Positions 4,885-40,911 of a stretch of DNA of 64,000 bases are shown here, one piece after another. Both the position numbers and the translations under genes were made by a program. The DNA comes from Asparagopsis taxiformis. Taxonomy: Eukaryota > Rhodophyta > Florideophyceae > Bonnemaisoniales > Bonnemaisoniaceae. The DNA lies in the NCBI GenBank assembly GCA_030407315.1, contig JALQPE010002520.1, positions 19,259 through 83,258 of the forward strand, given 5' to 3'. The notes under the pieces were generated by a model, which saw nothing but the letters and a program-made list of their open reading frames with translations, was not told the origin of the DNA and searched no databases. How positions within the stretch are numbered: position 1 is the first letter of the stretch; every line of letters starts with the position of its first letter.

Positions 4885-5249
4885 TTTCTAGCACTACGGT
4901 GTTGAAAAGGGGGCCTCAGACAGTACGGTGAGACAGTGATTTTTACTGTCTGAGACAGTAAAAATCACTATGCGGCAAATGAAAATTAATGCCACACTTG
5001 GAGACAGTGATTTGCAGTGTCTGGCAGACAGTACGGAACACTGTCTGCAGACAGTAAAAAACACTGTCTCACCGTACTGTCTGAGGCAGTGAATGGAGAC
5101 AGTAAAAATTAATGATTTATTCAATAGTTGGATACGATGTAATTTACTGTACTGGGCAGTGTTGGCGGATAGTGTTTTGTATTGGCCAAGGCAACATGGC
5201 CGGATAGTGAAATACGCTGCCTGGGACAACAGATGGAACCAACACGGTG

Positions 5250-5700
5250 CACTGTCCTGGGCAGTACCTGGAGACAGTGATTTTCACTGTCCTGGGCAGC
5301 ACCTGGAGACAGTGATTTTCACTGTCCTGGGCAGCACCTGGAGACAGTGATTTTCACTGTCCTGGGCAGCACCTGGAGACAGTGATTTTCACTGTCCTGG
5401 GCAGCACCTGGAGACAGTGATTTTCACTGTCCTGGGCAGCACCTGTAGACAGTACTTTGTACTGCCCTGGGCAGCACCTGTAGACAGTATTTTGTGCTGC
5501 CCTGGGCAGCACCTGTAGACAGTATTTTGTGCTGCCCTGGGCAGCACCTGGATACAGTGATTTCCACTGTCCTGGGCAGCACCTGGAGACAGTGTTTCGT
5601 GCTGCCCGGGGCAGCACCTGGAGACAGTGTTTCGTGCTGCCCTGGGCAGCACCTGGAGACAGTATTTTGTGCTGCCCTGGGCAGCACCTGGAGACAGTAA
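5250..5700. repeat. 35-bp subterminal tandem repeat (about 13 units)
   Basis: Units combine CTGGGCAGCACCTGGA with GACAGTGATTTTCACTGT, itself palindromic. Some units have GTACTGCC or TTTGTGCTGCC variants. Because 35 is not a multiple of three, all frames run open, so the long frames here are not evidence of coding. Repeats of this kind near CACTA ends are the usual transposase binding regions; that role is inferred. Confidence 0.85.
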
Positions 5701-6083
5701 AAGTAGTGTCCTGATATAGTAAAATTCGGTGTCTGGGAGTGGTGGATGAGATGGAGCGTCACGCTGTCGTGGGCATCTTTTTGGGGTAGAGGGAGGCAGT
5801 TCTAGCGCTATGAGGATGGGGTATGGACGGCATCTACGTGGAAATGGACAGAATAGTACGGCTAGGAATTTTTATTTCGTAGTGACTATGAGCTAGCGAG
5901 AGGTATACGCGGTAGGATAGGTAGCAGTCTAAGAGGGTGCGATATGGGAAGCTTCACTCTGGTTTTGTTTATTTGCGCAGGCTACATTGAGGGTAAACTA
6001 TCCCTATGGTAAAACTGCTTGTAATACAACTGAAACTATTCTGAAGATTAAAACTAAGACTACTAGAAAAGTCTACAAGTCTA

Positions 6084-6424
6084 TCAACTGATTGAACTTC
6101 CTGAATGTGCTAGGAAAGAAAGAGAAGAAGAGAAAAATGATGCAGGGAAAGGAAACAAGTTAGTGACGTTGAATTGGAATGGGAAATTGATAGTGATTAG
6201 GAGACTAACGTACCTTAACAAATACCATTGCATCCCAAATTGAGATACGTACTCACAGGCAGAAAAGAAAAGTAGTGGAGAAGTGGTAAGAGAGAAAGAT
6301 AAATGAAAGTAGAAGTGGAACACTCACCGACTGGAAACCTGAGAAAGAGAAAACAAATAGAACACTGGGTTAGTGGCGTGAGTTGTGGAAACGTACCATC
6401 ATGGTTCATATCCGTCGGAGACAA
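6084..6424 (-). other. Spliced-leader-like exon/intron block in left arm
   Basis: On the minus strand, an exon ending ATGATG is followed by donor GTACGT, a CACTAACCC branch-like site, a pyrimidine tract ending CAG, an 11-nt exon GTTTCCAGTCG, donor GTGAGT, another pyrimidine-rich intron, a roughly 38-nt exon and donor GTACGTT. The same order is conserved in the right arm. It would be transcribed outward toward the CACTA tip. Confidence 0.5.
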
Positions 6425-6510
6425 AGCAACAACTTTGGCGGTGGAAGCAGTATAGATGATCTATACAGCTTCCACCGCCAAAGTTGTTGCTTTGTCTCCG
6501 ACGGATATGA
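6406..6510. repeat. 105-bp near-perfect hairpin in left arm
   Basis: Two arms of about 48 bases, beginning TCATATCCGTCGGAGACAAA and its complement, around a small TATAGATGATCTATA centre. The right-arm counterpart (39,330-39,472) is a longer, imperfect, double hairpin. Confidence 0.85.
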
Positions 6511-6727
6511 AGATGGAAACAGGGATTTCCAGAACCTGTCGTTTAAGTAGCACTCTGCGGGCGGAAATGACGTGTAGGAGAACAATAGAGGGATGAATTT
6601 GAAACGGAGCGGTGCGATGGGAGGCCCAGAAAAACGATACCTAGGGTGCGAATTACGCTTTGAAGCACATGACCTGGCAGAACAGGCGCACATTATTGTA
6701 TCTTCTACCGCCTTCTCTAGTCTATAA

Positions 6728-6735: not shown

Positions 6736-7471
6736 TCACTACAGAAATATAGGAAAACCACTAGCATATGGGGCCTACAGAAAAGGGTGAGGCGAAGAGT
6801 AGGAAAAATGGCGCACTTTCCTGGACGAGGAGTCCGCGCTTCCAGTGATGATGTGGACGGTATATATCGATGACATCATTGCATGCTCTGAGCACACTTG
6901 GCAGGCAGTCAAAGCGGGCCACGTGGATGTGGGCGGCTAGGAAACAGCAGTGTGGGAGAAATTTTATAATTTTCATGTTGCAAGCGAGCAGTGAATCTGC
7001 ATTGCAATATATAAATTTATGCTAATTTAAGATATCACACCGAGTACGATTCAACGAGAGATTGTGCTTTCAACTTGTAAATAGGGCCGAAAATGTGGTA
7101 GAGTATACGAGTAGGAAGTACGTGTATGAGAAAATCAGATTCAGTATTAGTGCCTAGAGCATCACTGCGAAATAAACGGCCGTTTTCCGGAAATGGATAC
7201 ATCTTGGTTGGGTTTGTGGTTAGGGAATGCGATACAAGATAGCAAAACGATGTTGGGTCCGGATGAAATAGCAATCAATGTGTATAAAGAAATGAGCATA
7301 GGACAAAGAATTGTGGTGAACCAGTTCATTGGATCGAATGAAACCCTGGAAAGGTTTCGTAACGGTTAAAAGTAGTAGTACTGTATTGAGATAGTAGTCA
7401 TGTCGTAGAAGTTTAGAGTTGTATTCTATGCAACAAAACTGAGCGAAGAAGAAAAGAACAAAAACATCAAG

Positions 7472-8722
7472 ATGGCTCCGAGACGGACTCCTATTCGAAA
7501 GAAAACCACAAGTCGTAGGACAAAGGCGAGATTCGATTCACTCAATGTGGCCAGTCCCAGTGAACAGCTTCCTGGGAAACTGCAGGGAGAAATCCGCAGC
7601 AGTGATGCAGCCTGCATGAACAAAGAAATCCCGAGAGGTAATGAGTTACGACGTGAGTGTACCACAGATGACCTATTGGAGTCCCCAATCCCTATGGGTG
7701 ACACAATAGAAGGTTGTATTGATGTGTACAGCAACAACGATGAAGCTGGAAGTGACATCTACGTAGCATCGAGCACGCTAATGGAATCGGAAGAAGCAAC
7801 CGGACGAGGTTCTGATTCTATTTCAACTGGAGGCCCGATAGACCGAAATGCTGGGGATGAAGCATGTGGTGATTTCAAGGCACTACTACGATGGCCTGCA
7901 ATGTATGGGGCTCTTCAGCTGAGTGGAACTCAAAGAATGACAAGAGCCCACTATGAAGTTACCCTGTTCGGAATGAATTTCCGCAGAGATCCAAGTGAGC
8001 ACGTCCCGTCGGACTCTGTGATGCGACAGAAGATACTACCATTCTTGAGGAAACACTGCTATGCAAAGAGCTGTGACATAGAGTTTCCGATAGACCTTCG
8101 AAAGAGCGGAGCAAGAGCTGCACAGCATCGAGGTGCAGTAGGAACCCGTGGAACAACAGATGACAGAGACAATTGTGGAGGAATGGCGAAAGTTCGTATT
8201 GTACTCCCAAGCACATGGGCTCTGAAAGATGTCCAGACTCGACCAATCTTTAAAGCATTCCGCAGTGACGCGAACAATCGAAGCTCGGAAGGAGAAAAAT
8301 CAACCGCAGAGTGCAGCATTGAAGATTCGTTCATCGCAAAGTGCAGGAGGGGTGTTTTGAGCGACCCATTCGTTCGCACAGCAGTTGTTCCCATTGACAG
8401 CGATGGGAAAAAGGGTTTGAAGCACATTTATGTACCTGATGGAACAGCAATTCGAATCCGATGTCATCCAGGAGCTCGTCAGGTTGCCGTCATCGAAAGA
8501 GCAAAAGGGTTTAGGAAGAATGACAGAGATGGTGGGAAACCGAAGAGGAGAAGAGTGGCGGTTACGTCGTTGTGGGAACTTCATGCTAGGACCATAGTTA
8601 CCTATGAGGCTCGACACGACGGTGAGCATGATGTGCATGTCGAAAAATATCTGCAGCCGCGAATGTCACATCTATTGGAATGGGAGAGCAGCATGCTCTG
8701 CGAGCGATATCGCAATGTGTAA
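7472..8722 (+). CDS. Plavaka-type transposase, N-terminal part (frame-broken)
   Basis: A 416-residue frame that begins MAPRRTPIRKKTTSRR, a basic, probably nuclear-targeting start. It corresponds to roughly the first third of the intact protein at 49,126-53,112, sharing the segment around FRRDPSEHVP and the following helices. It ends in a stop at 8,722, and the rest of the protein continues in another frame from 8,680, so the two halves overlap by 43 bases. In the intact relative both are one frame, so the break here is a frameshift (or a sequencing indel), not a normal gene boundary. The gene begins about 100 bases inside the inner edge of the left inverted repeat, so the repeat probably contains its promoter. 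Confidence 0.65.
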   Translation: MAPRRTPIRKKTTSRRTKARFDSLNVASPSEQLPGKLQGEIRSSDAACMNKEIPRGNELRRECTTDDLLESPIPMGDTIEGCIDVYSNNDEAGSDIYVASSTLMESEEATGRGSDSISTGGPIDRNAGDEACGDFKALLRWPAMYGALQLSGTQRMTRAHYEVTLFGMNFRRDPSEHVPSDSVMRQKILPFLRKHCYAKSCDIEFPIDLRKSGARAAQHRGAVGTRGTTDDRDNCGGMAKVRIVLPSTWALKDVQTRPIFKAFRSDANNRSSEGEKSTAECSIEDSFIAKCRRGVLSDPFVRTAVVPIDSDGKKGLKHIYVPDGTAIRIRCHPGARQVAVIERAKGFRKNDRDGGKPKRRRVAVTSLWELHARTIVTYEARHDGEHDVHVEKYLQPRMSHLLEWESSMLCERYRNV

Positions 8723-11280
8723 TCGGAGCAGGAGCCAAGGGAAAAGGAACACGAGCTGGGGACGTGATAACCGTTCTATTACCAATTGGAATGGAAGAGG
8801 GTGATATTGTTCCACACGTCGTATTGGTGAACAGGTATTTGAAAGAGCAGGTCGGAGAAGCATCCACCATGTTACTTTGCTTTTCACCGGGCGCGAGCTT
8901 TGCTGAAGCCAGAAACCCGCCCGATAGACTAGGAAGCCCCAACTATGAAGAAATTCGTGTTTCAGGGGTGTTCTCGGATGGTTTCGGAGACCACAGGTCG
9001 CAATGGCACCCAGCGTCTCCGCGAGAAGATGCACCATGTTGGGGAAAGCTGGAGGATGGTCGAAACTACTTTGTTTACCGATTTCTCCTTTACACGGATG
9101 ACTTTGAACCATTCACAAGCAGGAAGGGAAGTTTTGGTGGATGCTATATGTTACCTCTCAATCTACCGCCTCGGAAAAGGGGAAGCTACCAAGCGGTTCG
9201 AGTGATTGGTTTGCCACCTCCGGGAGTGTCCACAAATTGTGTATTGCGATATATCGTTCAAGATATAGTGCGAGGAAGCACAGAGGGTTTCCCAACGAAA
9301 AATGCAGAGGGAGAAGATGTTGTGGTATTTCTAGACCCAGTGGGGAGCATTGGAGACTATCCTGCAGTTTCACATACCCTGGATGTTCTTGGACACACAT
9401 CAAACTCTCCGTGCCACATCTGCAGTTTCCGCAAATATGACCTGAGTAGTACTGGTGGCACGAAGAATGCATACACTTCGGTAGTGAACGGGCAAACATC
9501 GACGCATGCCAGGAGCAAGTATCGGAATGCATCGACACGTAAGGATGCCACAGAAACCCAGCTTCGCACTCTCGGACTGGCTGCAGAAGAAGGGGAAGAT
9601 TTACCATTTCATGTCCTGAGCACTTCCTTGGAAGCAGTGCAGGAAGAAGTACCAAAGACGGAAAACGGAGTTTCAGTTGTCCCAGCAATTTTTGACCCGT
9701 ACCGTTCCGCAGTGATAGCACCTGACCATCTATTGTCTGGACTGGCACAAGATGTACTGAACGCTTGTATTTCAGCTGCCAGCCCACGAATTAGAGAGGT
9801 AGCTGAATTGCAAATTCTGGGCGCTCTGAAGAAGTTCAGGATGGGAAGGCAGAACCGTTTATTTGGAACCAACAATCTGCTTTCCATGAACATGAGTGAC
9901 ATATTCAGTGTGCTGCTGATAGCACCTATGGCATTCGAAAACGCAGCTCGAATGATGGATGGGAAAGGGGAAGGTCATCGTGAAAAATTTGATGGGGCCG
10001 TCAAACTAGTAGTGATGTTTCAGAAGCTGGTTTCGTGTATTAGTTTCATGCCCGTATGGTGGAAAGACGGTCCACATGAAGTAGAGACGGCTGACGGAGA
10101 AGGTGGCAGGAATGAATACATTCTGGGAAGAACCGTAGACTACGTGGAGACGTTGAATGAGTATTGTCGGAAAGTGAAGGGAGCAGGAGCACATTTGGAC
10201 AAGCCTAATGTTCATCGTCTTGTCGAGTTTTGTGTTCATACGCTTCCTGCCTACGGCTCTGTGAAGCACGTGCAGGAGCTTATATTCGAACGGATGCATC
10301 AGCCGCTGAAGAAAGGTGTGAGAATGTCCAATCACCAAAGCGAACAGCTTTCAGCGCTGGAATTAGTTCTTGCGGATGACTGGCAGACGAGAGTGGCCAT
10401 TGTTTTGCGCGAAATCGGCATGGAGCCACAACATTGGTCCTCGTCCGAATGCTCTCAAATGGTCAACGTTCTTTCACAGGAGCTAGGGAGAGAAATAGAT
10501 GTGGAAGACGAGGTAGTGAAAAACTGCTTCCAGGAACCGGTTCTCCAGCTTCTCTCCCAGCGTCGAGGAAAGATATTGTCGGCGGATGGTGAAATTGTGA
10601 CGTGGAGAGGGCATGGAGGTATATCTATTGACGAGGTCAAGGAGTACATGAATGGAAAATGTGATATGGCAGAGGGTGCTGTAGGTGTTTTCAAACGGTT
10701 CTTTACCGAAAGGTACGGAAGCGGAACAAGCGGGTGTGGAAAGTATGCCGAATGGGTGAGAAGAGTTTCTAGAAGCACTACGACAGAGTGGGGAAGGAAA
10801 ACAGTGCAGAGGTCTGGCTCTCTAGAATCAGGAGCTATCATCCATGCTGTTTGCCCTGAACAGAGGACATGTGAGGATGGTGCAACTTCACAAGCGATTC
10901 TGTACCCGGCGTCTCGTCTCACATCAGAGATAATGCGGGGAAGAATTAATTATGAACCGCGGTTTTTTATTGTTCTAGCGTTCTTTATCCTGAGGAACGA
11001 GAGTGCGAGAGATGAGCAAGGTACAGCTTATGGAGTTTGCCTGGGTTTGCAAAAAACTGATGAAGGAGTGTTCAAGGTCGAAGAGAGGCGACGAACAGTA
11101 ATTGTGGAGATGAGTGAGGGAGTCACTGAGGTGTTTGGTATGCACTATTGCAATGGGAGTGTATGCGAATATGATGAGAACATGAGGGAGGTAAGGCACG
11201 GACCCGGACTGCTGGAGGTGGAGAGATATATGCACTATGTAGGCGAGACGGATTTCCACCGAGGGCTGCATGATTTTTAG
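8680..11280 (+). CDS. Plavaka-type transposase, catalytic part (frame-broken)
   Basis: An 866-residue frame, clearly homologous to the second two-thirds of the protein at 49,126-53,112. Shared landmarks in order are: FLLYTDDFEPF followed by GGCYMLPLNLP; RVIGLPPPGVSTN; FLDPVGSIGDYPA with CHIC after it; DPYRSAVIAPDHLLSGLAQD; and a late block LDKPNVHRLVEF with the following ELIFERMHQPLKKG. The first Asp of YTDDF and the Asp of GDYPA sit where Plavaka/CACTA transposases carry catalytic acids; the third is probably in the DHLLSGL region (inferred). Expected activity is cut-and-paste transposition of the surrounding element in the nucleus. The intact relative shows that residues before GEQHALRAI are supplied by the upstream frame, so the listed ATG is not the true start. 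Confidence 0.7.
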   Translation: MGEQHALRAISQCVIGAGAKGKGTRAGDVITVLLPIGMEEGDIVPHVVLVNRYLKEQVGEASTMLLCFSPGASFAEARNPPDRLGSPNYEEIRVSGVFSDGFGDHRSQWHPASPREDAPCWGKLEDGRNYFVYRFLLYTDDFEPFTSRKGSFGGCYMLPLNLPPRKRGSYQAVRVIGLPPPGVSTNCVLRYIVQDIVRGSTEGFPTKNAEGEDVVVFLDPVGSIGDYPAVSHTLDVLGHTSNSPCHICSFRKYDLSSTGGTKNAYTSVVNGQTSTHARSKYRNASTRKDATETQLRTLGLAAEEGEDLPFHVLSTSLEAVQEEVPKTENGVSVVPAIFDPYRSAVIAPDHLLSGLAQDVLNACISAASPRIREVAELQILGALKKFRMGRQNRLFGTNNLLSMNMSDIFSVLLIAPMAFENAARMMDGKGEGHREKFDGAVKLVVMFQKLVSCISFMPVWWKDGPHEVETADGEGGRNEYILGRTVDYVETLNEYCRKVKGAGAHLDKPNVHRLVEFCVHTLPAYGSVKHVQELIFERMHQPLKKGVRMSNHQSEQLSALELVLADDWQTRVAIVLREIGMEPQHWSSSECSQMVNVLSQELGREIDVEDEVVKNCFQEPVLQLLSQRRGKILSADGEIVTWRGHGGISIDEVKEYMNGKCDMAEGAVGVFKRFFTERYGSGTSGCGKYAEWVRRVSRSTTTEWGRKTVQRSGSLESGAIIHAVCPEQRTCEDGATSQAILYPASRLTSEIMRGRINYEPRFFIVLAFFILRNESARDEQGTAYGVCLGLQKTDEGVFKVEERRRTVIVEMSEGVTEVFGMHYCNGSVCEYDENMREVRHGPGLLEVERYMHYVGETDFHRGLHDF

Positions 11281-17974: not shown

Positions 17975-18800
17975 ATTTTATGGTCTGGACCATTAGAAAT
18001 TAGTGGAATGGCAAACCATCAAAAAAATCCCAGAAATTACCGGCGCCGTGCCATAGATAAGTAGTGGAAATACCGTAAAGAATGTAATGGAATGGAACTG
18101 CGCCGTGGGAGTGGGTGTAAGCACCGTGACAGGTGGAATTTTCCAGTACTGTACGGAAAAATAACATTGGAAAGGACAAAGACACGTCGCGTTGGTCATG
18201 ACAGTGACCAGAGGTGGCATATTCCATTATTTTTGGAAATTCTATGCTGGAATGATGGAACGGCGGAACCATATGTATGACAGTACCATGATGGACTGGA
18301 ACCATGATCTTTGATGGTCACTCCAGTCTGTGCAATGGATGGCAGCCGTAGCAGTGCAAGGACGGTAGAGAGATGGACTGGTACTGACTGTTCCCATGTG
18401 ATATCCACTTAGATGAAGTCACATTTTGGATGTCCATGAGGAATATGATATCATATGGAAGAGGAGAAATGCAAAGTGTATGGCTTTAACTATCCTATCT
18501 CGATATGGTCATTGTTTTATCATAGATAGGGTATGGTCGAAAGAATGGAACCATCTACATTGATTTTTAGCACAGATAATACGGCTTGGTTACTATTTTA
18601 GTCGCTAAAGTCTGTAATCAAGCCACTCCCCTATACACGGGATTGACCCGAATAGTGATTTTCGCCCTGGCTTTAAGCGTTAGTAGTAACATAAACGCAG
18701 TAGTAGTGTAGTTGACAACTTTTGTGGCAGTGGGGAACATTGTAGTGATTTCGTATCATACGGTAAAAATGCAAAATTGGACGTTACGGATATGGGTGAG
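17975..18800. other. Intergenic, repeat-like, no gene
   Basis: Begins at the breakpoint that truncates the ParB-like copy. The first 450 bases are dense in short mirrored words (TGGAATGG, CCATGATGG, GGTCATGACAGTGACC) like a decayed foldback element; the rest is AT-rich spacer upstream of the next gene. Confidence 0.4.
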
Positions 18801-18883
18801 TAGTATTGAAGAAGTCAACGAAGACTTTTCCTAAACAGAATTGCAAATTGTGGGCTCTAGTATCTTTATTTGGTGGAGGAACT

Positions 18884-27180: not shown

Positions 27181-27189
27181 TTTCCGCTT

Positions 27190-28822: not shown

Positions 28823-29496
28823 GCTGCTGCGCAGATGGGTCGTCGTGGAATGGTGCACGTGATGGCCGGCTGGTGCGGTTATTTCACCGGTCGAATGCGT
28901 GGCATGGAGGGTGAAGGTCGACAGGCATGGCGGAAACAACGGGAAATCACCAGTGATGCTGCCGAGTGGAGGATTCGGGCATTATGAACTTGGTATCGGT
29001 GGTTTATCGATCACGGCCATGCGCAGTGTCTCGGCTAACACTGTTGTGTTATGGTTCGACCCAATGTGCTGGAATGCCGATCGTGTTGATTTGCGACAAG
29101 CGGGGTTGATGCCGACCATTGCGTTGTTGTTTAGTTTATGCGGTGGAAGGATTAGTCAGGAGATTCTGGCCGTTGGGCAGTGCACGATGCCGTTTGAGAT
29201 ATAGAGCGTTTTCAACCTTTTCATTAGATGCCGAGCAACAGAAATGCGCTGAATTGGTGCTTGCTGTTTAGGCCAACTACCAAACTTGGCTGGTGGAAGC
29301 AGTCAGAAAACTTTTACAAGGATGTTGATCTGGGTCTCTGGCACTGTCGCCGTTCAGAGTGCTGCCATCGCATCCCTGATCGACAAACTATTACAGTTTC
29401 AGCCACTGTATCTATCGCTAGAGAAGTGCACTATCGAATTTCTCAAACTGCCTCAAGGCAGTGTTTGAATCAACTTGTCCCAATTCTAATTCGTAA
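28823..29496. other. Intergenic between two host-type pseudogenes
   Basis: Short frames only, no domains. It should hold the promoter of the Sel1 gene and the 3' flank of the LPMO-like gene. Confidence 0.45.
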
Positions 29497-30389
29497 TCAA
29501 TCTCTCTGCAGACGCTTCCTTTCAACAATTCTCACATCAGAGCACTGATGAAACTCCTGCGGAAACACCTCTCCACCACATGGTTTTCTTGAGATACCAG
29601 TATCTGTAGGGGCCCCTACATTTGCCCCAAGCACCTTCCATCCTCTCAAAATACTCCGACAGCCCCGGTGCACTACACTGATGAGCACTAGCCCAGTACC
29701 AGTGTAACACGCAATGTCGGCTTGTAACACCTTTCTGTAGACGAAATCTCATCGTGGCTTCCCCAAATCTCTCCAGCCCGTTCCCAATCTTACACGGTAA
29801 ATACATCTCCCAGGATGCTTTTCATCAATCGGACCACACCGCTCCGCACCATAATTATGCGATTAATCGCAGGCAGATTTAGCACGCTTCAGTTCATGAC
29901 ATGTACCACGTTTGAAACACTGTTTTGAGATCTCGCCGTTGCACTTGGACACATCACATAAGTGTAACTGCATGAATCCACCATGATTGGCGATGACAAC
30001 AGTCGAGACTTCAATAACTTGGCCCTTGGTGTACTTGCGCGAAATCCTGCCACGATAATAAAACCTACCACCACGAAGATGCTGCTGCGGGCCCCCTTCT
30101 CGTCACCACACACACCGGAGCGCCATGTATCGCTCTGCGCCATGGGATCGAATAGCGTCCAATTATGTGCGCCCGCAACTTCCTGAGAGCGCGATCCGGC
30201 ACCTCGAACGGTGCTTTTCAGTCCAGTAGGAAAATGCGCATAGCGATCACGCGGCGCCGAATGAAAGTATATTGAGGGCGATAGTTCGCTGCCGGAGAGG
30301 AGCCCGCGTTGTGGCGGATCGGACAGCAGACCGTGTGAGAATGCTGTCGCAAGTAGGATGGCTACAGATGCGATGCGTAGATGCGACAT
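29497..30389 (-). pseudogene. Lytic polysaccharide monooxygenase-like protein, inactivated
   Basis: MSHLRIASVAILLATAFS is a signal peptide ending just before HGLLSDPPQRG, so the mature protein would begin with the copper-binding His of LPMOs. Further landmarks lie in different frames: VCGDEKGA, then HLRGGRFYYRGRISRKY, VSTVVIANHGGFMQLHLC (second brace His), CGPIDEKHPGR, MRFRLQKGVTSRHCVLHWYW and FHQCSDVRIVE. This order fits the chitin-binding-type-4 / AA15-like families that oxidatively cut chitin or cellulose outside the cell. Breaks: a slip in a GCA run near 30,090, a stop at about 29,865 inside a 14-bp palindrome, a slip near 29,810, and a shift at a 16-bp palindrome (29,605-29,620). Four breaks mean it is not functional as written, unless the sequence carries many indel errors. 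Confidence 0.75.
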
Positions 30390-30659
30390 TTCTCAGACGA
30401 TAGAGACGCAGCTTGCGAAGACGGCATCGAGTGAAACCGTCGCCTATGTAGAATCGTCATATGGGAGATCAATGGAGAGAATGGAACTTTTGCGACTGTG
30501 CTTGTGGCCCTTGTTTCGCTCTTCGCTCGGCGCTGGTCGCCATGAGGGACAGGTGACAATTCTAGCTGTGTGATAGTGTTCAAGTGGTACGATACTTGCG
30601 ACTGGGAACGTCAGTAGAGCTCTAGGGTAGGAAGAATAAACTTGGGCGGGAGGACGGGT

Positions 30660-30870
30660 TTTCAGGACAAGCTGTCAGACCTGTAATTACTCTGTTTTCT
30701 TACAGCAAAGTCATCGTTAAGGCGGATTTTTTTCTTCAGGACAAGCTGTCAAAACTGTAAGTTCTCTGTTTTCTTACAGCAAAGTCATCGTTAAGGCGGA
30801 TTTGCCTCCTCAGGACAAGCTGTCGGAACTGCTATTCAGTTTTCTTACAGCAAAGGCAGTTTACCCAGGT
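30660..30870. repeat. Tandem 76-bp units with half-palindromes
   Basis: About three units of TCAGGACAAGCTGTC plus TTACAGCAAAGTCATCGTTA followed by AGGCGGATTT, i.e. only the left half of the family 1 palindrome. They lead directly into the full-palindrome array. Confidence 0.8.
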
Positions 30871-30873
30871 TGC

Positions 30874-31155
30874 TTACAGAAAAGTCATCGTTACGATGAC
30901 TTTGCTGTAAGTAAACAAAACATTACAGCAAAGTCATCGTTACGATGACTTTGCTGTAAGTAAACAAAACATTACAGCAAAGTCATCGTTACGATGACTT
31001 TGCTGTAAGAAAACAAAACATTACAGCAAAGTCATCGTTACGATGACTTTGCTGTAAGAAAACAAAACATTACAGCAAAGTCATCGTTACGATGACTTTG
31101 CTGTAAGAAAACAAAACATTACAGCAAAGTCATCTTAACGATGACTTTGCTGTAA
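30874..31155. repeat. Six family 1 palindromes at exact 49-bp spacing
   Basis: Palindromes of 37 bp start at 30,874, 30,923, 30,972, 31,021, 31,070 and 31,119, separated by 12-bp spacers such as GTAAACAAAACA-like sequence. The first and last copies carry single changes. Confidence 0.95.
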
Positions 31156-31189
31156 GAAACCATAGTAAACCAACCTCTCTGTAAGCATT

Positions 31190-32040
31190 CGAGAGGGACT
31201 GATGTTTCTCACTCGGGAAGAAGAAGGAGACGATTTCGGACCCCGCGAAAAAGGCTGTAAAGTGGTCTGGAAGGGTTGGGGTGGTTCTAGGAAGCACTAA
31301 AACGTGTTCTAATTGCACTCAAAGCTTCTGGCTTGCGTGGTAGGGCTGGTAGAATTCATCGATTTTCGGTCACCAGATTCTCACAACTGGAGATGTGATG
31401 GTCAAAATGGAACTTTGTCCGAATTATGTGCAAGTGGTCTGTAAGGGTTGGAGTGGGTCTAGGGAGTACGGAAAAGTGTTCTATGAGTTCGTAAAGCTGC
31501 TGGCTTGCGCATTAGGGCTGACAGAATGCATCGAGTTTTGGTCACCAGATTCCCACAACTGGACATGTGATGGCCAAAATTGAACTTTGTCGGAACGAAG
31601 TGCAAGTGGTCTGGGAAGGTTGGGGTGGGTCTGGGGAGTACTGTAACGGGTTTTATTTGCCCTGAAAGCTGGTAGCTTGCGAGGTAGAGCTTCCGGAGTT
31701 CACTAATTTTTGGTCACCAGATTCTCACAACTGGAGATGTGATGGCCAAAATTGAACTTTGTCGGAACGAAGTGTAAGTGATCCGTAAGGGCTGGAGTGG
31801 CTCTAGGGAGTACGGAAAAGTGTTTTATGTGTCCGTAAAGCTGTTGAATTGCGTGGTAGGGATTCCAGAATGCATCGACTTTTGGTCACCAGACTCCCAC
31901 AACTGGAGATGTGATAGCCAAAATTGAACTTTGCAAGAACGAAGTGCAAGTGTTCTGGATGCCTTCAAGTGGCCTGGAAGCGTACTCTGGACAAGTTTTC
32001 GGACCTTGAAGAGGCTCAACTGCACAATGCTGATATTGAA
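31190..32040. repeat. About 172-bp degenerate tandem repeat (4-5 units)
   Basis: The landmark CCAGATTCTCACAACTGGA recurs at 31,372, 31,544, 31,717 and 31,889, and a further copy of the unit lies near 34,430-34,600. No coding potential seen. Confidence 0.85.
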
Positions 32041-32830
32041 ATGAAACATTCATATAGTCCATTTTTAACTAGAACTTCTGGAATGGATTGCGTAGCCTAT
32101 AGAGGAGCAATGTAGTTATATAATAGAGCTAGAAGCATGCCTCAACAACCTATCTCTCATGCCTCTAGTTCTCCTTCATTATTCCAGTCTCCCTTCCTGT
32201 GACGCACCGCGCCTCTGGTGTCACTTCACACGCCCCTCCTGTGCATTAAATACCTGTCTACTACTTCCGTATTCTACTCATACCACCACCTTCATTTTAC
32301 CCCATGCCTACCATCCTATCCTTTACCTTCTGTCCTTCAGTCCTAGGCTAACCTACTTCATAACCATCGATGTAAGGTGAATATCTAGATTCCTACCTAC
32401 TTGAGAGTATAGTTTATTATAACGGGAAACGGACGGTTTTGTATAGTCAATGTGCTACACAGCACCAGGAGTAGATTTTGCGCACCGATAATCTATGCTT
32501 GATATTGGAGAGACCGGCTTCTTGTAGCCTCGGAAAATGTGCAGGTAGTACCTTTCCAGAGGTCCTGGAGGTGTTCACACCAACTCTAGTCCATTTTAAC
32601 GAGTTTGAATTTCGACCGCCAGAATCTCTGTCGTGAGAAAATGGTGGTCGGAATTTACCGTGCTGCTCTCCCAATACTGAACTTTTTAGGTAGTTCAGCC
32701 CGGGTGAACAAGACACAGATTGCTCTTCAAAGCCGCCCGAAGCCGTCGAAACCATCCTTCCACAATGTTCCCGACTTCAAAATTCCTATCTCACCCTTCC
32801 CAAAGTGAGAGAGGGACCAAGGTACCAGAC

Positions 32831-33210
32831 GCTTACAGCTGAGGCAGTTTACCAGGGATGCTTACAGCAAAGTCATCGTTACGATGACTTTGCTGTAAGA
32901 AAAGAAAACATTACAGTGGGCGAAGGATTTTACCGGGTGAAAAAATCACCAAGAATTTTTTTACCGGGTAAAAAATCGTGGCTACTGTAATGAAACGTTT
33001 TCTTACAGCAAAGTCATCGTAACGATGACTTTGCTGTAAGAAAAGGAAACATTACAGTAGGCGAAGAATTTTTACCGGGTAAAAAATCACCAAGAATTTT
33101 TTTACCGGGTAAAAAAACGTGCCTGCTGTAATGTTTTCTTTCCTTACAGCAAAGTCATCGTAACGATGACTTTGCTGTCAGCACCCGCGGTAAACTGCCT
33201 CAGCTGTAAG
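32831..33210. repeat. Nested foldback block 1 (3 family 1 palindromes)
   Basis: Outer arms TTACAGCTGAGGCAGTTTAC and the inexact complement GTAAACTGCCTCAGCTGTAA enclose palindromes at 32,862-32,898, 33,003-33,039 and 33,144-33,180, alternating with TTTTTTACCGGGTAAAAAA-type hairpins. Confidence 0.9.
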
Positions 33211-33898
33211 CGGTCTGGCTTCACCCTCTCTCTCATGTCTCTTGTCTTCCTTCATCCCAGCCTATCCCAACCTCCCTTCTATGTCGACTCCGGTGTCACT
33301 CCAGCCGACCCTTCAGTGAGTGCAATCCTTCTCTACCACCGCCATAATCTACTCATACTATCCCCTTCATGTTGCTGCATACCTACCCTCCCATCCTTCC
33401 TGATTTTCCTACAATCCTAGGCTAGCCTACTTACCAACTATGTTGGTATTGAAGGCAGCTAGATTCCTAGTAACTCAGATCTATAGTCTGCTGAAAAGGG
33501 CGATTTGGTGTGGTCACTGTGCCACACGGCACCAGGAATAGAATCTGGCCACGGATACTCTATGCTTGATCTCAGAGAGAACAGCTGCGCCAATGCTCCG
33601 AAAACGTGCTGTCAGTACCTTTCCAGACGTCCTGGAGGTGCTCATGCCAGCTCTAGTTCATTTTAGGGAGGCTGAGTTTCGACAATCAGAATTTCACTCT
33701 TGAGGAAATTGTGTTTGAAATTTTGTGCACTCCTCCCGCCGTACCAGGCAGGGCACCCAGCCCAGACTGGGTTAGCACGACGCAGAGTGCTCCCCAACAC
33801 CGCTAACAGCCGTCCAAACCATCCCTCTGCCATGTTTTACGGCTTCACAATTCCTTGCTCACCCTTCCCAAGGTGAGGGAGGGACCAAGCTCCCAGCC

Positions 33899-34111
33899 GC
33901 TTACAGCTGAGGCAGTTTACCAGGGATGCTTACAGCAAAGTCATCGTTACGATGACTTTGCTGTAAGAAAACGTTTTCATTACAGTGGCCAGGAATTTTT
34001 TACCCGGTAAAAAAATCATGGCTACTGTAATGAATTGTTTTCTTACAGCAAAGTCATCGTAACGATGACTTTGCTGTAAACATCCCTGGTAAACTGCTCC
34101 GTCTGTAAGCC
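33899..34111. repeat. Nested foldback block 2 (2 family 1 palindromes)
   Basis: The simplest complete unit: outer arms TTACAGCTGAGGCAGTTTAC / GTAAACTGCTCCGTCTGTAA, palindromes at 33,930-33,966 and 34,043-34,079, and a central TTTTTTACCCGGTAAAAAA. The whole 210 bp can fold on itself. Confidence 0.9.
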
Positions 34112-34346
34112 GTTGGTCTCAACCCTCGATCTCATGTCTGTTGTCCTCCTTCATCATCTCCACATCCCTTCCTGCTAAGCATCACTTCTCTAGTGTCACT
34201 CTACCAGTCCTTTTCGTGCATGAAATACTTTTCTACCACTGCCATAGTCTACACATACTATTGCCTCTATACTTCTGCATGCCTACGCTTCCATCTTTCT
34301 CTCCCGTGCTAGGCTTAGAGAATATCCTACTTCCTGAAGATCATTG

Positions 34347-34413
34347 TACAGTGAGGCAGTAAAAATCACTGTCTCACCGTACTGTCTGAGGCCCCCTTTT
34401 CAACACCGTAGTG
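34347..34413. mobile_element. Solo CACTA right end
   Basis: ACAGT-type motifs followed by GAGGCCCCCTTTTCAACACC and GTAGTG, identical in its last 30 bases to the giant element's tip at 40,911. Only about 67 bp are present before unrelated sequence; it interrupts the 172-bp repeat unit to its right. Confidence 0.75.
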
Positions 34414-35245
34414 TATAAGGGCTGGAGTGGCTCTGGGGATTACAGAAAGGTGTTTTATCTGTCCGTAAAGCTTCTGGCTTGCGCATTAGGGCTGGCAGAA
34501 TGCATCGATTTTTGGTCATCAGATTCTCACAACTGCAGATATGATGAATTTCGGCCATGGCCAAAATTCAACTTTGTCGGAACGACGTAGATTTGGACTG
34601 GATGCCTCCAAGTGCATGCACTTGAAAGTGCACTTAGTCCAAAAAATTGTCCAGAGTACGCTCCCAGGCGATGGCCTGGAAGTGTACTCTGGACAAGTTT
34701 TTGGACCTGGAAGAGGTTGAATTGCACAATGCTTGTGTTGAAATGAAACATTTATATGGCCCATTCTTTACTCGGACAGCTGAAATCCTATCTACTCGAG
34801 AGTAAAGTATATAAAAACTGGAAACAGACGGTTTTGTATAGTCAATGTGCCACACGGCACCAAGAGTAGATTTTGCCCTCCGATAATCTATGGTTGATTT
34901 CAGAGAGGATAACCGCGTGCAGTCACAGGACATGTGTTACCAGATCCTTCCCAGAGGTCCTGGAGGTGTTCACACCAACTCCAGCCCACTTTAACGAGTT
35001 TGAATTTCGAAAGTCAGAATCTCTGTCGTGAGAAAATTGAACCATTTCCGACCACGTGGTAGAAATTTCGTACACTCCTCCAACCATACTAGACACAACA
35101 CCCAGCTCAAACCGGGTGTAAACAACACAATGTGTTACCTATTGCCGCCTACAGCCGTCCATACCATTCCTATACCCTGTTTCCTGACTTCATAATTCCC
35201 TCCTCACCCTTCCCTAGGTCGGAAAAGGACGGAAGTACCTGCCGC

Positions 35246-35706
35246 TTACAGCGGAAGCAATTTACCAGGGATGCTTACAGCAAAGTCATCGTTACGATGA
35301 CTTTGCTGTAAGAAAATAAATCATTACAGCAGCCATGATTTTTTACCCGGTAAAAAATTCTTGGCCACTGTAATTGAAACGCTTTCTTACAGCAAAGTCA
35401 TCGTAACGATGACTTTGCTGTAAGAAAATAAATCATTACAGCAGCCACGATTTTTCACCCGGTAAAAATTCTTGCTGATTTTTTACCCGGTAAAATTTCT
35501 TTGGCCACTGCAATGGAAACGTTTCCTTACAGCAAAGTCATCGTTACGATGACTTTGCTGTAAGAAAATAAATCATTACAGCTGCCATGATTTTTTTACC
35601 CGGTGAAAAAATTCTTGGCCACTGTAATGGAAACGCTTTCTTACAGCAAAGTCATCGTAACGATGACTTTGCTGTAAGAATCCCCGGTAAACGGCTTCCG
35701 CTGTAA
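35246..35706. repeat. Nested foldback block 3 (4 family 1 palindromes)
   Basis: Palindromes at 35,275-35,311, 35,387-35,423, 35,527-35,563 and 35,641-35,677 with three GGTAAAAA hairpin spacers. Outer arms TTACAGCGGAAGCAATTTAC and GTAAACGGCTTCCGCTGTAA. Confidence 0.9.
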
Positions 35707-36127
35707 GGGGCTGAGAGTTCCGTCCCCCTCCCACCTAGGGAAGGGTGAGCAAGGAATTGGGAAGTCAGGAACATGGCTCAGCAGAACGTTTGTACGGCTG
35801 TGAGTGGCTTCCAGGAGCATTCTGTGTCATGTGTTATCTCAGCAACGTCTCTTATAGTCGAACCTCACGGGTTGTCAAGGTCTAAAACTAGTTCCCCCCT
35901 ACGGTCTAGCTAGTGAAATCATGTAAAGTTGTAGACTAATACAAAAATGTAGCAATCAATAGGCTTAGTAGCACTAAACTATGACATGAAGGTCAGATGT
36001 ATAGATGAAAATAGAAAGGTGGGCTAAGCGAATAATGTTGAGATGAGAAAGACAGAACTTCATAGCAGGGAACAATAGCATAGGTTTTAATACTTCTCGT
36101 ATGCTATCTATTGCTCCTGTCATACTT
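35707..36127. other. Intergenic, no gene
   Basis: Starts with the recurrent L flank in inverse orientation, then AT-rich spacer downstream of the decayed ParB-dioxygenase copy. Confidence 0.5.
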
Positions 36128-38450
36128 TTAATATTCGACGGTGTGGATGTGGTCCGTGAGGACGTCCTTCTCCGTCTTCAAGTAGATGTGGCCGCGCGTG
36201 GGCAGACCATAGACTAAATTCTGCTCCCACAGGAAGATCTCCTCACCTGAAGCCGACCCCGTAATGGTAAAGGTCACCGCGATCAACTAAGACGGAATAG
36301 GGTGGCACATAAAAGTGGTTAACGGGAACCTTCCACATGTCGGCGTCCGTATGGACCAGGCATACATGACTATAAGGTGCAGCTACTATAAAGAACCCAT
36401 CGGATCCGCTCGACATCATGAAATAGGATGGGGATTGGGTAGGTCCGACTCCTCAAAATTGGGATTCTCAGAAGTCCGTGTGCCCATCCTGGTCCGCAGC
36501 CCCATCTGTTTTAAGAAGCAGCCGTAATCCTGTCTTCGGGAAAAAGACAGGATCCTCACCCTCCATTCCCAACTTCAAGAAATCCGCACAAACACCAAGA
36601 GCAAGCTCTGCCACCAACTTGTTCCTGTACATATCCAAATTCCCCTCCTCCAGCTTGTCGCACAATTCACACCGCGGCAGGGGGAGTCGCCCACGACCAC
36701 CATCTATGCGGTCCTTCGCAGCACCCACGTTGTGGATGAAATGCCACGGCGAAGGATCAAAACCGGGCTTGGCGAAATCTGGGGGCTCGTCCTGTGGTTT
36801 CCTGTCTTCATAATCAGAATCAGACTGCTGGGAGGGTTTCTGTGGCTTTTCAACCTCCTCAACCAGCTGGAACTGCCGAGAAAAGTGACTGAAGAGGTCA
36901 TGCGTCGCACTACCAGCCGTGGACGACTGCAAGAGGCCTTCCACAACAACCACCCCCATGTTGTCCAGCAACGCCGCTTCACCGCAAAGTACTATTCCAC
37001 CACCGAGTCCTCAGCACCTGGCGATGCAGCTGCCAGGAATGCTGCCGCCTTTATTTCCGCCCGCACCGTCTCTACCGTCGTAATTTCCATGTAGTACTTC
37101 ATCGGGCTACCAGACGCAATTGCGTTAGGGAGAACGGCGGCCACATTCTCATCGACGATACTGTCGGGAATAGGATTTTCATGGGCGTCGTCGAACTGGA
37201 GAATCGGCTCCCGAGAACGTCCTCTGGAAGCCGACTTGGATTTCTTTGACGACGACTTTGATGAAGTCTCACTGAGCTTCCTCTTTTTGGTAGAGGGCTC
37301 GGGCGTCGCAGAAGCGGTTTCCCAGTTGCGCTTCCCGAGGATGGAGCTTTTACCCGCATCCTTGGGTGCGCTCTCCAGCTCGACGACCTGAATAGGGCTC
37401 GCACCACCCGCCGTCGCTGTTCCACCACGACCGGAACGACTCTCTTTCAGGCAGGTACTCCTTTTGGGCATCACTTTCCCAGAAGTTTCCACTCCGGACG
37501 ATGCAGACACGACAGGGGCAGTGGCAGAAACAGAGGCAGCCTCGGAATAGCTGGAAGAATCTAATTGAGGTGGTACTACCTCAATTGGATTCTTCAAAGG
37601 CAAAGGAATGGAGGATGAAGGGATGGTCAGGGAAATGGAAATGGAAGGGGAAGGGTTGGCGGAATCATGACCACATGTGACTGGGAGCGCAGCATGTGGG
37701 ATGTGTGGGTCCACCACGTAAAATTGTTTCCGCATTTACATGTCGCGGTAGCCAGTTACGCGCAGGAGCATTTTCCTGGCGTCCTTTCAAAACACAGACT
37801 TCCGATTGGGAAAGATCTTCTCAAACTTGGAGCCATTGGGAGGGCCTTCCTTGGGATGTAAGTCCGCTCAGAACCCCTTCTTGGGCACCATCAGCGCAAA
37901 AACTTCGACAACGCGTGAGTGAATGTCGAAGCTCTTGCTCGGGTCACCCACGCTGGGAATGGAGCCATCCAGCATCCTCAACACATCCGAAACGTTCCAA
38001 TACTCGGCCACCTCCTTCACGTACCCGAAGATTTCCAACAAACCAGCAATCCATTCCTGCCCAATGGTACCAACCGAGTTCGGTTTCAGCCCGGCCCACC
38101 AACGGCTACAAGTGTAGTACGCCGTCATCTCGAGGTTGACACAATTTTGGACGTCCGGAGCACCCCTAAACGATCCGTTGAACAACAATTTCACCGTACA
38201 CCCAGCCAGATTCTCCGTCGAAGAGAACTGCACGAACTCTGGCCTGTTCGGAATAGTTTTCTGCAGCCAAATCCGTTTTCAAGAATTGCTCCATCGTTGC
38301 AGACTTCTTCAACCACTAGCCAACGACCTCTGATATTCACTTTGCGAGGTTCAACTTGCACTTCAGACGAACTATACTGGGCAATATTGATGCATGTCTC
38401 GCTTGCTGAAGGAGATTTACTCTTTTCCGCTACTTCTCCGCTATAGTGCA
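36128..38450 (-). pseudogene. Decayed composite ParB-dioxygenase copy
   Basis: Read on the minus strand from 38,450. It begins with sequence nearly matching the 5' end of the gene at 12.5 kb (NIAQYSSSEVQVEPRKVN), then jumps about 870 bases ahead, to the region matching copy 1 near 13,530, so the DGSHR core is deleted. From 38,233 a second family member takes over: VNLEMTAYYTCSRWWAG and VKEVAEYWNVS match the helical domain of copy 1 (EMTASWTRM; VVRKWLNSA). A Ser/Lys-rich linker (37,735-36,992) contains a 42-bp palindrome. The dioxygenase follows as VVVVEGLLQSSTAGSATHD, GHTDF, SPSYFMMSSGSDGFF, YVPPYSVLVDRGDLYHYG and a tail ending HTVEY. Several frame changes and a stop directly after HTDF make it non-functional. 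Confidence 0.75.
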
Positions 38451-39107
38451 GAATTATATTTCTCCGCCACTAAATTCAACCATTAAGAAACCTTTCCTGG
38501 CTTTCATTCGATCCAATGAACTGTTTCACCACAATGATTTGTCCTATGCTCATTACTTTATGCACAATGATTGCTATTTCATCCGGGCTCGACCTACTCA
38601 ATATCGTTTTGCTATCTTGTATCGCATTCCCTAAACACCAGCCTGGCCAAGACGTATCCACTTCCGTTTGTTACGCAGTGATGCTCTAAGCACTAATACT
38701 GAATCTGATTTTCTCATGCACGTAGTTCCTACTCGTATACTCTACCATATTCTCGGCCCTATTCACAAGGTGAAAACACGATGTCTCGTTGAATCGTACT
38801 CGGTGTGATATCTTAAATTAGGATACATTTATATATTGCAATGCAGACTCACTGCTCGCTTGAAACATGAAAATTATAAAAATTCTTCGACACTGCTGTT
38901 TCCTAACCGCCACCATCCACGTGGCCCGCTTTGACTGCCTGCCAAGTGTACTCGGAGCATACAATGACGTTATCGATATATACCATCCACATCATCACTG
39001 GAAGGGCGGACTCCTCGTCCAGGAAAGTGCGCCATTTTTCTTACTCTTCACCTCCGCCTGTCCTGTAGGCCCCATATGCTAGTGTTTTTCCTATATTTCT
39101 GTAGTGA

Positions 39108-39134
39108 TGACGTCATTCTAGACAATAAAAGGCG
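39108..39134 (+). promoter_or_regulatory. Putative promoter: CRE site plus AATAAAAGG
   Basis: TGACGTCA at 39,108-39,115 is followed about ten bases on by GACAATAAAAGGCGG. The spliced-leader-like exons lie 350 bases downstream on the plus strand, transcribed outward. Confidence 0.35.
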
Positions 39135-40178
39135 GTAGAAGATACGATAATGTGCGCCTCCTCTGCCAGATCATGTGCTTCCAAGCGTAATTCGCAGCCT
39201 AGGTATCGTTTTTCTGGGCCTCCCATCGCACCGCTCTGTTTCAAATTCATCCCTCTATTGTTCTCCTACACGTCATTTCCGCCCGCAGAGTGCTACTTAA
39301 ACAACAGATTCTGAAAATCCCTGTTTCCATCTTCATATCCGTCGGAAACAAAGCAACAACCCTGGCCGTGGAAGCCGTATAGATCATCTAAACTGCTTCC
39401 AAAGCGTAAGTTTTAGATCATCAATACGGCTTCCAAGGCCAAAGTTGTTGCTTTGTCTCCGACGGATATGAACCATGATGGTACGTTTCCACAACTCACG
39501 CCACTAACCCAGTTTTCTATTCGTTTTCTCTTTCTCAGGTTTCCAGTCGGTGAGTGTTCCACTTCTACTTTCATTTATCTTTCTCTCTTACCACTTCTCC
39601 ACTACTTTTCTTTTCTGCCTGTGAGTACATATCTCAATTTGGGATGCAATGGTATTTGTTAAGGTACGTTAGTCTCCTAATCACCATCAATTTCCCTCTC
39701 CAATTCAACGTCACTAACTTGTTTCCTTTCTCTACATCATTTTTTCTTCTTCTCTTCATTTCCTAGCTTATTCATGCAGCTCAATCAGTTGATAGATTTC
39801 TAGACTTTTCTAGTAGTTTTAGTTTTACTCGTCGGAATAGTGTTAGTTGTAGTAGCATTTTTAACATAGGGATTGTTTATTCTCAATGTAGCCTGCGCAA
39901 ATAAACAAATCCAGAGTGAAGCTTCCCATATCGCACCCTCTTAGATTGCTACCTATCCTACCGCGTATACCTCTCGCTAGCTCATAGTCACTACGAAATA
40001 AAAATTCCTAGCCGTACTATTCTGTCCATTCCCATATGAATACCGTCCATGCCCCATCCTCATAGCGCTAGAACTGCCTTCCTCTACCCCGGAAAGATGC
40101 CCACGACAGCGTGACGCTCCATCTCATCCACCACTCCCAGACACCGAATTTTACTATATCAGGACACTACTTTTACTG

Positions 40179-40560
40179 TCTCCAGGTGCTGCCCAGGGCA
40201 GCACGAAATACTGTCTCCAGGTGCTGCCCAGGGCAGCACAAAGTACTGTCTCCAGGTGCTGCCCAGGGCAGCACGAAATACTGTCTACAGGTGCTGCCCA
40301 GGGCAGCACAAAGTACTGTCTACAGGTACTGCCCAGGGCAGCACAAAGTACTGTCTACAGGTACTGCCCAGGGCAGCACAAAGTACTGTCTACAGGTACT
40401 GCCCAGGGCAGCACAAAGTACTGTCTACAGGTACTGCCCAGGGCAGCACAAAGTACTGTCTACAGGTACTGCCCAGGACAGTGAAAATCACTGTCTCCAG
40501 GTACTGCCCAGGACAGTGAAAATCACTGTCTCCAGGTACTGCCCAGGACAGTGCACCGTG
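40179..40560. repeat. 35-bp subterminal tandem repeat, right arm (about 11 units)
   Basis: Same unit family as at 5.25-5.70 kb in inverse orientation, but most units are of the TACTGTCTACAGGTACTGCC type, so the two arrays have expanded independently. Confidence 0.85.
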
Positions 40561-40911
40561 TTGGTTCCATCTATTGTCCCAGGCAGCGTATTTCACTATC
40601 CGGCCATGTTGCCTTGGCCAATACAAAACACTATCCGCCAACACTGCCCAGTACAGTAAATTACATCATATCCAACTATTGAATAAATCATTAATTTTTA
40701 CTGTCTCCATTCACTGCCTCAGACAGTACTGTGAGACAGTGTTTTTTACTGTCTGCAGACAGTGTTCCGTACTGTCTGCCAGACAGTGCAAATCACTGTC
40801 TCCAAGTGTGGCATTAATTTTCATTTGCCGCATAGTGATTTTTACTGTCTCAGACAGTAAAAATCACTGTCTCGCAGTACTGTCTGAGGCCCCCTTTTCA
40901 ACACCGTAGTG

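Follow-up and report, generated by a model that had tools for sequence, protein, structure and literature searches.

Is the 36-kb stretch between two matching CACTA tips in the genome of Asparagopsis taxiformis one exceptionally large transposon, or is it something else? The stretch (positions 4892 to 40911) lies in a window of 64,000 nucleotides, the whole piece of DNA analysed here (contig JALQPE010002520.1). A first-pass annotation had read it as a single element, closed by 2.4-kb inverted repeats and loaded with genes that modify DNA and chromatin. The answer is that the region consists of several large DNA transposons nested in one another: an element of one family (B) lies inside a first copy of another family (A1), and a second copy of that other family (A2) lies inside B. 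Both families have the same trio of genes, for a CACTA-like transposase, for one or more proteins with a ParB-like domain and a dioxygenase part (DOX), and for a DNA methyltransferase (MTase) continued by a SET domain. In our judgement the probable explanation is a stack of red-algal cut-and-paste transposons, in which A and B each carry a transposase, a ParB-dioxygenase and an MTase-SET protein and may use them to rewrite silencing marks.

A stack of nested elements

Coordinates with the prefix w are positions in the window, as are those in the list below; L-numbers denote loci and C-numbers contigs of the same assembly, and the assembly searched for copies amounts to 141.5 Mb. The features of the stack, with terminal inverted repeats (TIRs) and open reading frames (ORFs), are as follows.

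4892..5720, plus strand: tip 1 of A1 (CACTACGGTGTTGAAAAGGGG) with its subterminal array of GACAGT and 35-bp repeats; there are 30 GACAGT/ACTGTC sites in 829 bp
7471..11280, plus strand: transposase gene Tnp-A of A1, frame broken here; a single intronless ORF in L011 and L014
12535..15640, plus strand: DOX-A of A1 (ParB-like and dioxygenase), frame broken here; a single ORF in C2103
17210..17941, plus strand: DOX-D of A1, the 5' part of a second ParB-dioxygenase gene, cut by B; continuous in C2103
17942..55533, no strand assigned: family B element, from TIR CACAGCATAAGCAA to TIR TTGCTTATGCTGTG; 21,462 bp once A2 is subtracted
18800..20578, plus strand: ORF of B, 592 amino acids, no assigned function
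20706..22460, minus strand: ORF of B, 584 amino acids, no assigned function
22926..24783, minus strand: MTase-SET gene of B, N6_N4_Mtase and SET part, the latter with a short break in its reading frame
24782..24783, plus strand: target duplication TT of A2, left
24784..40911, no strand assigned: A2, a family A element inside the MTase-SET gene of B, with tip 2 at 24784 and tip 1 at 40911
24784..25150, plus strand: tip 2 of A2 (CACTACGGTGTTGGGAATGG) with its GACAGT array
27433..28981, minus strand: pieces of a Sel1-repeat gene of A2
34390..34413, minus strand: internal copy of tip 1 within A2; same flank in L015, L016, L017, L026 and C2103
36180..38466, minus strand: DOX-C of A2, a dioxygenase gene without the ParB core, frame broken
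40150..40911, minus strand: tip 1 of A2 with its array
40912..40913, plus strand: target duplication TT of A2, right
40912..42560, minus strand: N-terminal part of the MTase-SET gene of B (start approximate), split off by A2
44267..47878, plus strand: DOX-B of B (ParB-like and dioxygenase), intact ORF
49126..53112, plus strand: transposase gene Tnp-B of B, related to Tnp-A

What first catches the eye is real. By self-alignment, two inverted arms (4892 to about 7376 and about 38469 to 40911) are 90-96% complementary in their longest pieces and 88.6% overall; the 24-base tip CACTACGGTGTTGAAAAGGGG closes the outer end of both, at 4892 and at 40911, in inverted orientation; and inside each arm runs an array of a 35-bp unit, 12.8 copies in one and 10.8 in the other. 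The tips, arms, arrays and cargo genes of the first-pass annotation thus exist, but the single element does not, as is seen at a site in which part of it is missing.

In contig C2057, w17942-24784 (99.6% identity) is joined directly to w40912-43559 (97.6%) and the match runs on to w52982 (98.6-99.3%). The 16,128 bp of w24784-40911 are absent there, and the MTase-SET gene is one uninterrupted ORF of 1214 amino acids. In the window, the missing segment opens with tip 2, CACTACGGTGTTGGGAATGG, closes with tip 1 in reverse, and has TT directly before and after it. Because C2057 joins the two parts of B without it, A2 is a separate insertion with a second tip of its own; because A2 is nested inside the MTase-SET gene, that gene belongs to B and is no cargo of the arms. 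In terms of the occupied and empty sites whose comparison was proposed earlier, C2057 is the site lacking A2. An A element is bounded by tip 1 on one side and by tip 2 on the opposite side; as 4892 and 40911 are both tip 1, they are ends of two different A copies, and the two arms are the same end of A1 and A2. They are, in other words, independent insertions, the very case that the annotation had set against its own proposal.

The entry of B into A1 can be read in the same way. B interrupts DOX-D at GGGAT|CACAGC (17941|17942), a point at which DOX-D runs unbroken in C2103. The partner junction predicted from this, the right tip of B followed by AT and the next bases of DOX-D, occurs at two places, on C362 and C573, against 0 for a control. 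The insertion of B into DOX-D is genuine, and its target duplication is AT.

The two families and their ends

How widespread are these elements, and how do they end? The 21 bases of tip 1 have 929 exact matches in the assembly and tip 2 has 409; the control (reversed, for tip 1) gave 0 in each case. The figure of 929 overstates the number of elements, because it takes in internal tips (such as that at 34413, identically flanked in L015, L016, L017, L026 and C2103) and apparent duplicate contigs with common flanks (L010/L011, L012/L023, L019/L020). The internal tip at 34413, with its fixed flank, is possibly an alternative end or the fossil of a nested insertion.

Pairs in which tip 1 and tip 2 face each other were chosen among the first 100 matches listed for each pattern, and 10 pairs on 9 contigs were tested, candidate pairs on C59, C116, C174, C191 and C215 lying outside this set. 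The two tips are 13.3-16.5 kb apart in nine pairs and 24.5 kb apart in one (C221). Seven of the 10 have a 2-bp target duplication and none a 3-bp one. The expectation of copies throughout the genome was borne out for tip 1, yet these copies pair tip 1 with tip 2 and not with itself. The TIR of family A is CACTACGGTGTTG, and the ends read CACTA..TAGTG; the TIRs of A and B are 13-14 bp long and start with CAC. The ends of A are dense in one short word: 71 of the 101 GACAGT/ACTGTC sites of the window fall within three terminal family A stretches totalling 1,958 bp, and the count at tip 1 of A1 compares with a density of 0.48 per kb in the sequence beyond these three arrays. The paired site GACAGTN6ACTGTC, allowing at most one mismatch, has 4 matches against 0.16 expected; just three of them lie within A ends, so that it does not describe the form of most of the array.

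Family B ends in CACAG..CTGTG, with CACAGCATAAGCAA at 17942 and TTGCTTATGCTGTG at 55533. Its left tip was found at the distance predicted from the MTase-SET gene in 13 of 16 copies (9 of 10, then 4 of 6). The right tip was at the first predicted place in none of 7 copies and was later located by its pattern, which has 42 exact matches in the assembly (control 0). That search gave eight two-ended copies for which the sequence on either side was read. In seven of them (C348, C2079, C2057, C824, C1630, C2058, C2132) the ends are 20.8-21.5 kb apart, and in C2217 35.5 kb. A 2-bp target duplication is present in five of the eight and a 3-bp one in none. This count leaves out C226, whose two ends are some 32 kb apart, five contigs in which just the left end was seen (C321, C438, C1596, C443 and C1897), four in which just the right end was seen (C363, C716, C1771 and C2427), and C2455, in which neither was. 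The copy in C824 starts with AACAGC instead of CAC. Over A and B together, 12 of 18 copies have 2-bp and 0 of 18 have 3-bp duplications.

The eight B copies are not all independent. C1630 and C2132 have a common right flank and C2057 and C2058 a common left flank, while the other flank differs in each pair, a picture that may reflect recombination between B copies or assembly joins. Within B, a 0.6-kb inverted repeat (96%) of palindromic units at 43112-43713 and 48204-48808 brackets DOX-B as if it were a unit of its own. At L025 (C1937), position 301, a family A tip lies within a copy of DOX-B; insertion into genes of the other family goes both ways. A Tudor-like resemblance of the 592-residue ORF and the Sel1 gene, suspected by eye, found no support.

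Transposases and class

To which class do these elements belong? Tnp-A, an ORF of 1268 codons including the stop in L011, is related to Tnp-B (phmmer E 6.5e-88), and the two transposases likely move their elements by cut-and-paste. Neither the Tnp-A pieces nor Tnp-B have a Pfam match up to E 10, that of Plavaka (PF18759) included. By eye, Tnp-A has PCHxC and H..LP..YG..E..H, a possible counterpart of the DDE pattern in which C(2)C and H(3-4)H precede the last E.

Both families have the 5'-CAC..GTG-3' terminal inverted repeats of the CACTA/EnSpm (CMCT) group, and the ends of family A also have its subterminal repeat arrays; the duplications are not the 3 bp of EnSpm, and CMCT elements as a whole make duplications of 2-5 bp (PMC12730594; this and the other papers are cited here from excerpts). 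Plavaka ends are given as TGT..ACA or CATCA..TGATG (PMC12730594), unlike the CACTA..TAGTG and CACAG..CTGTG found here.

A Plavaka-type transposase had been placed between the arms. The only Plavaka match seen in Pfam lies outside, at 144-3254 on the minus strand (E 3.2e-23). This gene is a Plavaka transposase in a red alga, with a 98% copy in L025; the Plavaka group is mainly described from fungi. As a candidate for the inner transposase it was rejected: profile search and pairwise comparison were negative, the latter with no significant similarity between the two proteins, and a test of single blocks was mixed. Two of three blocks of the Plavaka gene fit Tnp-A better than chance (their score is reached by 1 and 0 of 300 shuffles); for the CxxC block, which fits no better than chance, 226 shuffles reach it, and none of the three fits Tnp-B (99, 184 and 38 of 300).

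The ParB-like and dioxygenase proteins

The first-pass annotation had also placed ParB-like and dioxygenase-like genes between the arms, and these were found: DOX-A, DOX-D and DOX-C. DOX-A is a single frame of 1041 codons including the stop in C2103, DOX-D two overlapping frames in the same contig, and DOX-B, intact in the window, has 1203 amino acids. The paralogues are 28-31% identical, and the HxD, H and R residues of the dioxygenase part are invariant in the three paralogues compared. No TET/JBP match was seen in Pfam; what this part has of that type is the HxD..H..R pattern.

The ParB-like part was recognised by profiles of phage proteins. The profile phrog_1033, a ParB-like partition protein of phages, matches DOX-B (E 5e-5), MTase-SET-A (0.0023) and DOX-A (0.016), and phrog_4272, whose function is not assigned, matches the ParB-like part of MTase-SET-A (E 1.8e-6). 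A model of the ParB domain has a mean predicted local distance difference test (pLDDT) score of 50, too poor for a fold search. Profile searches of the PDB with the dioxygenase and ParB alignments gave 0 matches, and no relatives of the dioxygenase were confirmed in viral contigs.

The methyltransferase-SET proteins

The MTase-SET fusion proposed earlier exists, in that an N6_N4_Mtase gene runs into a SET domain; it lies between the arms only through the nesting of A2. The family A version (C2103) starts with a ParB-like part, with one in-frame stop between that part and the remainder. Its N6_N4_Mtase (E 1.5e-16) and SET (E 1.1e-5) matches are both above the curated cut-offs of Pfam, the SET match (PF00856) covering the full length at 26.2 bits against a cut-off of 22.4. 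The C-terminal half of MTase-SET-B, taken alone, reaches 17.5 bits for SET, below that cut-off, while N6_N4_Mtase (PF01555) is above its own in both proteins (E 1.5e-16 and 5e-13). Over the enzyme part the two are 35% identical. A gapped copy of the MTase-SET-A gene lies between A tips in C221, the 24.5-kb copy with mismatched flanks, of which 4,001 bp inside were examined.

The methyltransferase motifs are TDPPFN/TDPPYN and DFFSGT/DLFAGT, that is (D)PP(Y/F) followed by FxGT, an order by which we take these PF01555-type enzymes to be of the beta class. The nearest named bacterial enzymes include the adenine-specific DpnA, PRK11524 and CcrM, and N6-methyladenine (6mA) is for this reason our guess for the product. 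The methyltransferase part has matches in 171 phage records, all of them covering no more than 80% of its length, and the 15 listed are 23-27% identical; no relatives of the MTase-SET proteins were confirmed in prokaryote and viral contigs.

The B-type genes are numerous. Out of 4206 first-look candidates, 68 B-type places were scored, and 39 of them have a listed stop-free open frame of at least 1200 amino acids: 28 at 98-99% identity, 10 at 69% and 1 at 60%. The group at 69%, ten uninterrupted frames of 1203-1204 amino acids, points to a further related family.

A possible way of working

How might such a set of genes serve a transposon? The transposase would move the element. The ParB-like domain may bring the dioxygenase to the repeated DNA of the element itself, perhaps to the terminal arrays, and in family A it may also bring the MTase-SET enzyme there. 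The dioxygenase would take off methyl marks, and the methyltransferase would add a methyl group to adenine or to N4 of cytosine, giving 6mA or N4-methylcytosine (4mC). Taken together, host silencing marks would be replaced by the element's own, with release from host silencing as the supposed direction. Red algae do have marks of this kind on their repeats: DNA methylation of transposons is described in Gracilariopsis, and trimethylation of histone H3 at lysine 27 (H3K27me3) on repeats in Cyanidioschyzon (both PMC8566409).

A bolder version can be imagined. ParB proteins bind cytidine triphosphate (CTP) and slide away from parS. The elements might then mark themselves: a ParB-like clamp would load at the terminal arrays, spread, and carry with it exchangeable enzymes, an eraser of host methyl marks (the dioxygenase) and a writer of both an adenine mark and a histone mark (MTase-SET), so as to give the element a heritable chromatin identity. 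We offer this as speculation and consider it improbable.

Weighing the explanations

Several results weigh against the explanation preferred here. As for the elements themselves, no duplication is found at three of the eight B copies (C2057, C2079, C824), nor a matching one at three of the 10 A pairs, including the long copy in C221. The partner junction predicted for the A insertion in C1937 has 0 matches, and the MTase-bearing A copy in C2103 has tip 1, its tip 2 being absent from the 40 kb read. As for the proteins, the dioxygenase part has no match in Pfam, PHROGs or the PDB, its assignment rests on HxD..H..R, and its AlphaFold model, with a mean pLDDT of 31, is likewise too poor for a fold search. 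The ParB-like match is a modest one that Pfam does not show, and the N-terminal ParB-like part of MTase-SET-B is degenerate at best. The motif NHxCxPN, by which SET methyltransferases bind S-adenosylmethionine (AdoMet), is not clear in the SET parts, that region reading FASNIKNPH in A and RAANVSFSS in B; SET activity is doubtful for this reason. As for selection, the variable columns of Tnp-A are spread near-evenly over the codon positions (31, 43, 39), and the ratio of nonsynonymous to synonymous differences (pN/pS) of the ParB-dioxygenase genes is 0.64 over all pairs and 0.54-1.27 against the window copy (9 copies), so that selection among young copies is poorly supported. As for the contig, the sequence beyond the right end of B (from w55534) is not the remainder of DOX-D, so that two B insertions are linked here, whether through recombination or through a misassembly.

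The last point leads to the alternative that fares best, namely that parts of the stack are assembly joins inside the repeat B, and that A1 and the sequence to the right of B may in fact lie apart on the chromosome. The flanks of B in the window do not match, and the junction that should stand on its right sits on C362 and C573 instead; from this it follows that the contig switches between two B copies. The half-shared flanks of C1630/C2132 and C2057/C2058 tell the same tale. Recombination between B copies, however, would give the same picture, and the junctions of A2 in B agree on both sides and are unaffected. To us the matter looks evenly balanced.

A second alternative accepts the two families and holds that their MTase-SET and dioxygenase genes ride along or are remnants in decay, of no use to the element. 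It could appeal to the weak constraint on ParB-DOX among young copies, to the broken frames of several copies (in the window, those of Tnp-A, DOX-A and the SET part), and to A2, which has no transposase match and no ParB core. Against it, the gene set is kept in two families at only about 28-37% protein identity with the catalytic residues retained, and dozens of MTase-SET places have full frames. On these grounds it seems unlikely to us. The case for constraint on the ParB-dioxygenase proteins would lie in their conservation between families and not in the young copies. Selection on the transposase is weakly indicated among 13 Tnp-A copies, whose pN/pS is 0.44 when all pairs are taken and 0.03-0.36 in comparison with the window copy.

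A single 36-kb CACTA element with 2.4-kb inverted repeats, holding all genes of 4892-40911, has very little left to commend it. Its tips are identical over 24 bases, inverted and outside long arms; besides the gap in C2057, which refutes it provided that this contig is correctly assembled, both its ends are tip 1, while the ten tested A copies pair tip 1 with tip 2 (by the choice of pairs) and seven of them are duplicated at the target. The bases that flank 4892 and 40911 differ (TAG and TTC), with no common duplication. As for the arms, outside the 35-bp array they are 89.7% identical to each other; arm 1 is 93-95% and arm 2 90-94% identical to the left-module loci that align with arm 1 over its full length, and L015, L016, L017, L021 and L026 match the innermost 0.9 kb of arm 2 at 97-98.6%. 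An island of host chromatin genes invaded by chance, suggested by cargo-like genes unrelated to transposition, is just as hard to credit, since MTase-SET stands at many places and, in most B copies, at a fixed distance from the left tip.

Host and known systems

The host is the red alga of the record. A fungal setting, from which the first-pass annotation drew its comparison, is ruled out by a PsbO gene on C211 (E 5e-96) closest to structure 7y5e, which is that of the red alga Porphyridium purpureum (PMC12661325), and by 13 phycobilisome-linker matches in the genome. Elsewhere in the window, at 59554-63423 on the plus strand, a long open frame encodes a retrotransposon polyprotein (RVT_2, E 5e-47), probably of the Copia type.

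How new is all this? Transposons that carry a single silencing-related enzyme are already known.

Closest in host are the enlarged EnSpm/CACTA families of Chondrus crispus, 16-20 kb long with 4-5 ORFs instead of the usual 1-2 (Kojima et al. 2013; PMC6431247). They share with the present elements a red algal host, the CACTA group and a large, multi-ORF build; compared by description only, the elements here differ in their 2-bp duplications and their gene-rich copies of about 21 to 24.5 kb.

Closest in idea are the fungal CMCT transposons with a TET/JBP dioxygenase, for which an escape from silencing has been proposed (Kojima 2025; PMC12730594). They too are CACTA-related and carry a DNA dioxygenase. 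They are fungal and of the TET/JBP type, and ParB has 0 occurrences in the text of that paper as available; the elements here have another dioxygenase-like part, fused to a ParB-like domain, and MTase-SET in addition. A SET gene on a transposon is also reported for the HarbingerS and MuDR elements of oomycetes (PMC12730594), which belong to other superfamilies, and the sentence that describes them there mentions no DNA methyltransferase fusion.

For the methyltransferase, the nearest parallel is N4CMT of bdelloid rotifers (PMC8885841), a eukaryotic protein in which an N6_N4_Mtase of bacterial type is likewise joined to a chromatin domain and which acts on transposons. N4CMT is a host gene with a chromodomain and the motif SPPY, whereas here there is a transposon gene with a SET domain and DPPF/DPPY. 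The fungal 6mA writers MetB, transferred from bacteria, and MTA1c (PMC13297926) are further eukaryotic examples, MetB sharing the bacterial origin, but they belong to other families (PF02384 and MT-A70).

The gene set itself was not found described in the literature searched, mainly titles and openings of abstracts, with Repbase and most subscription literature outside its range. Enlarged multi-ORF CACTA elements of red algae and transposon-borne TET/JBP or SET genes are thus known, and what appears new, judged from sequence, is this combination of genes. The mobile DNA and chromatin modification package with a ParB-like domain and MTase-SET, as first proposed, holds for two families, in which the genes of the set exist in separate versions.

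What would this mean? There are two multi-copy families, each with a predicted writer of a mark, fused to a domain like that of histone methyltransferases, and a predicted remover, with a ParB-like domain as the link. If the explanation is true, a red alga would harbour a DNA methyltransferase of bacterial type in many copies, and it would become possible to test directly whether transposons set a chromatin state of their own, beyond evading that of the host.

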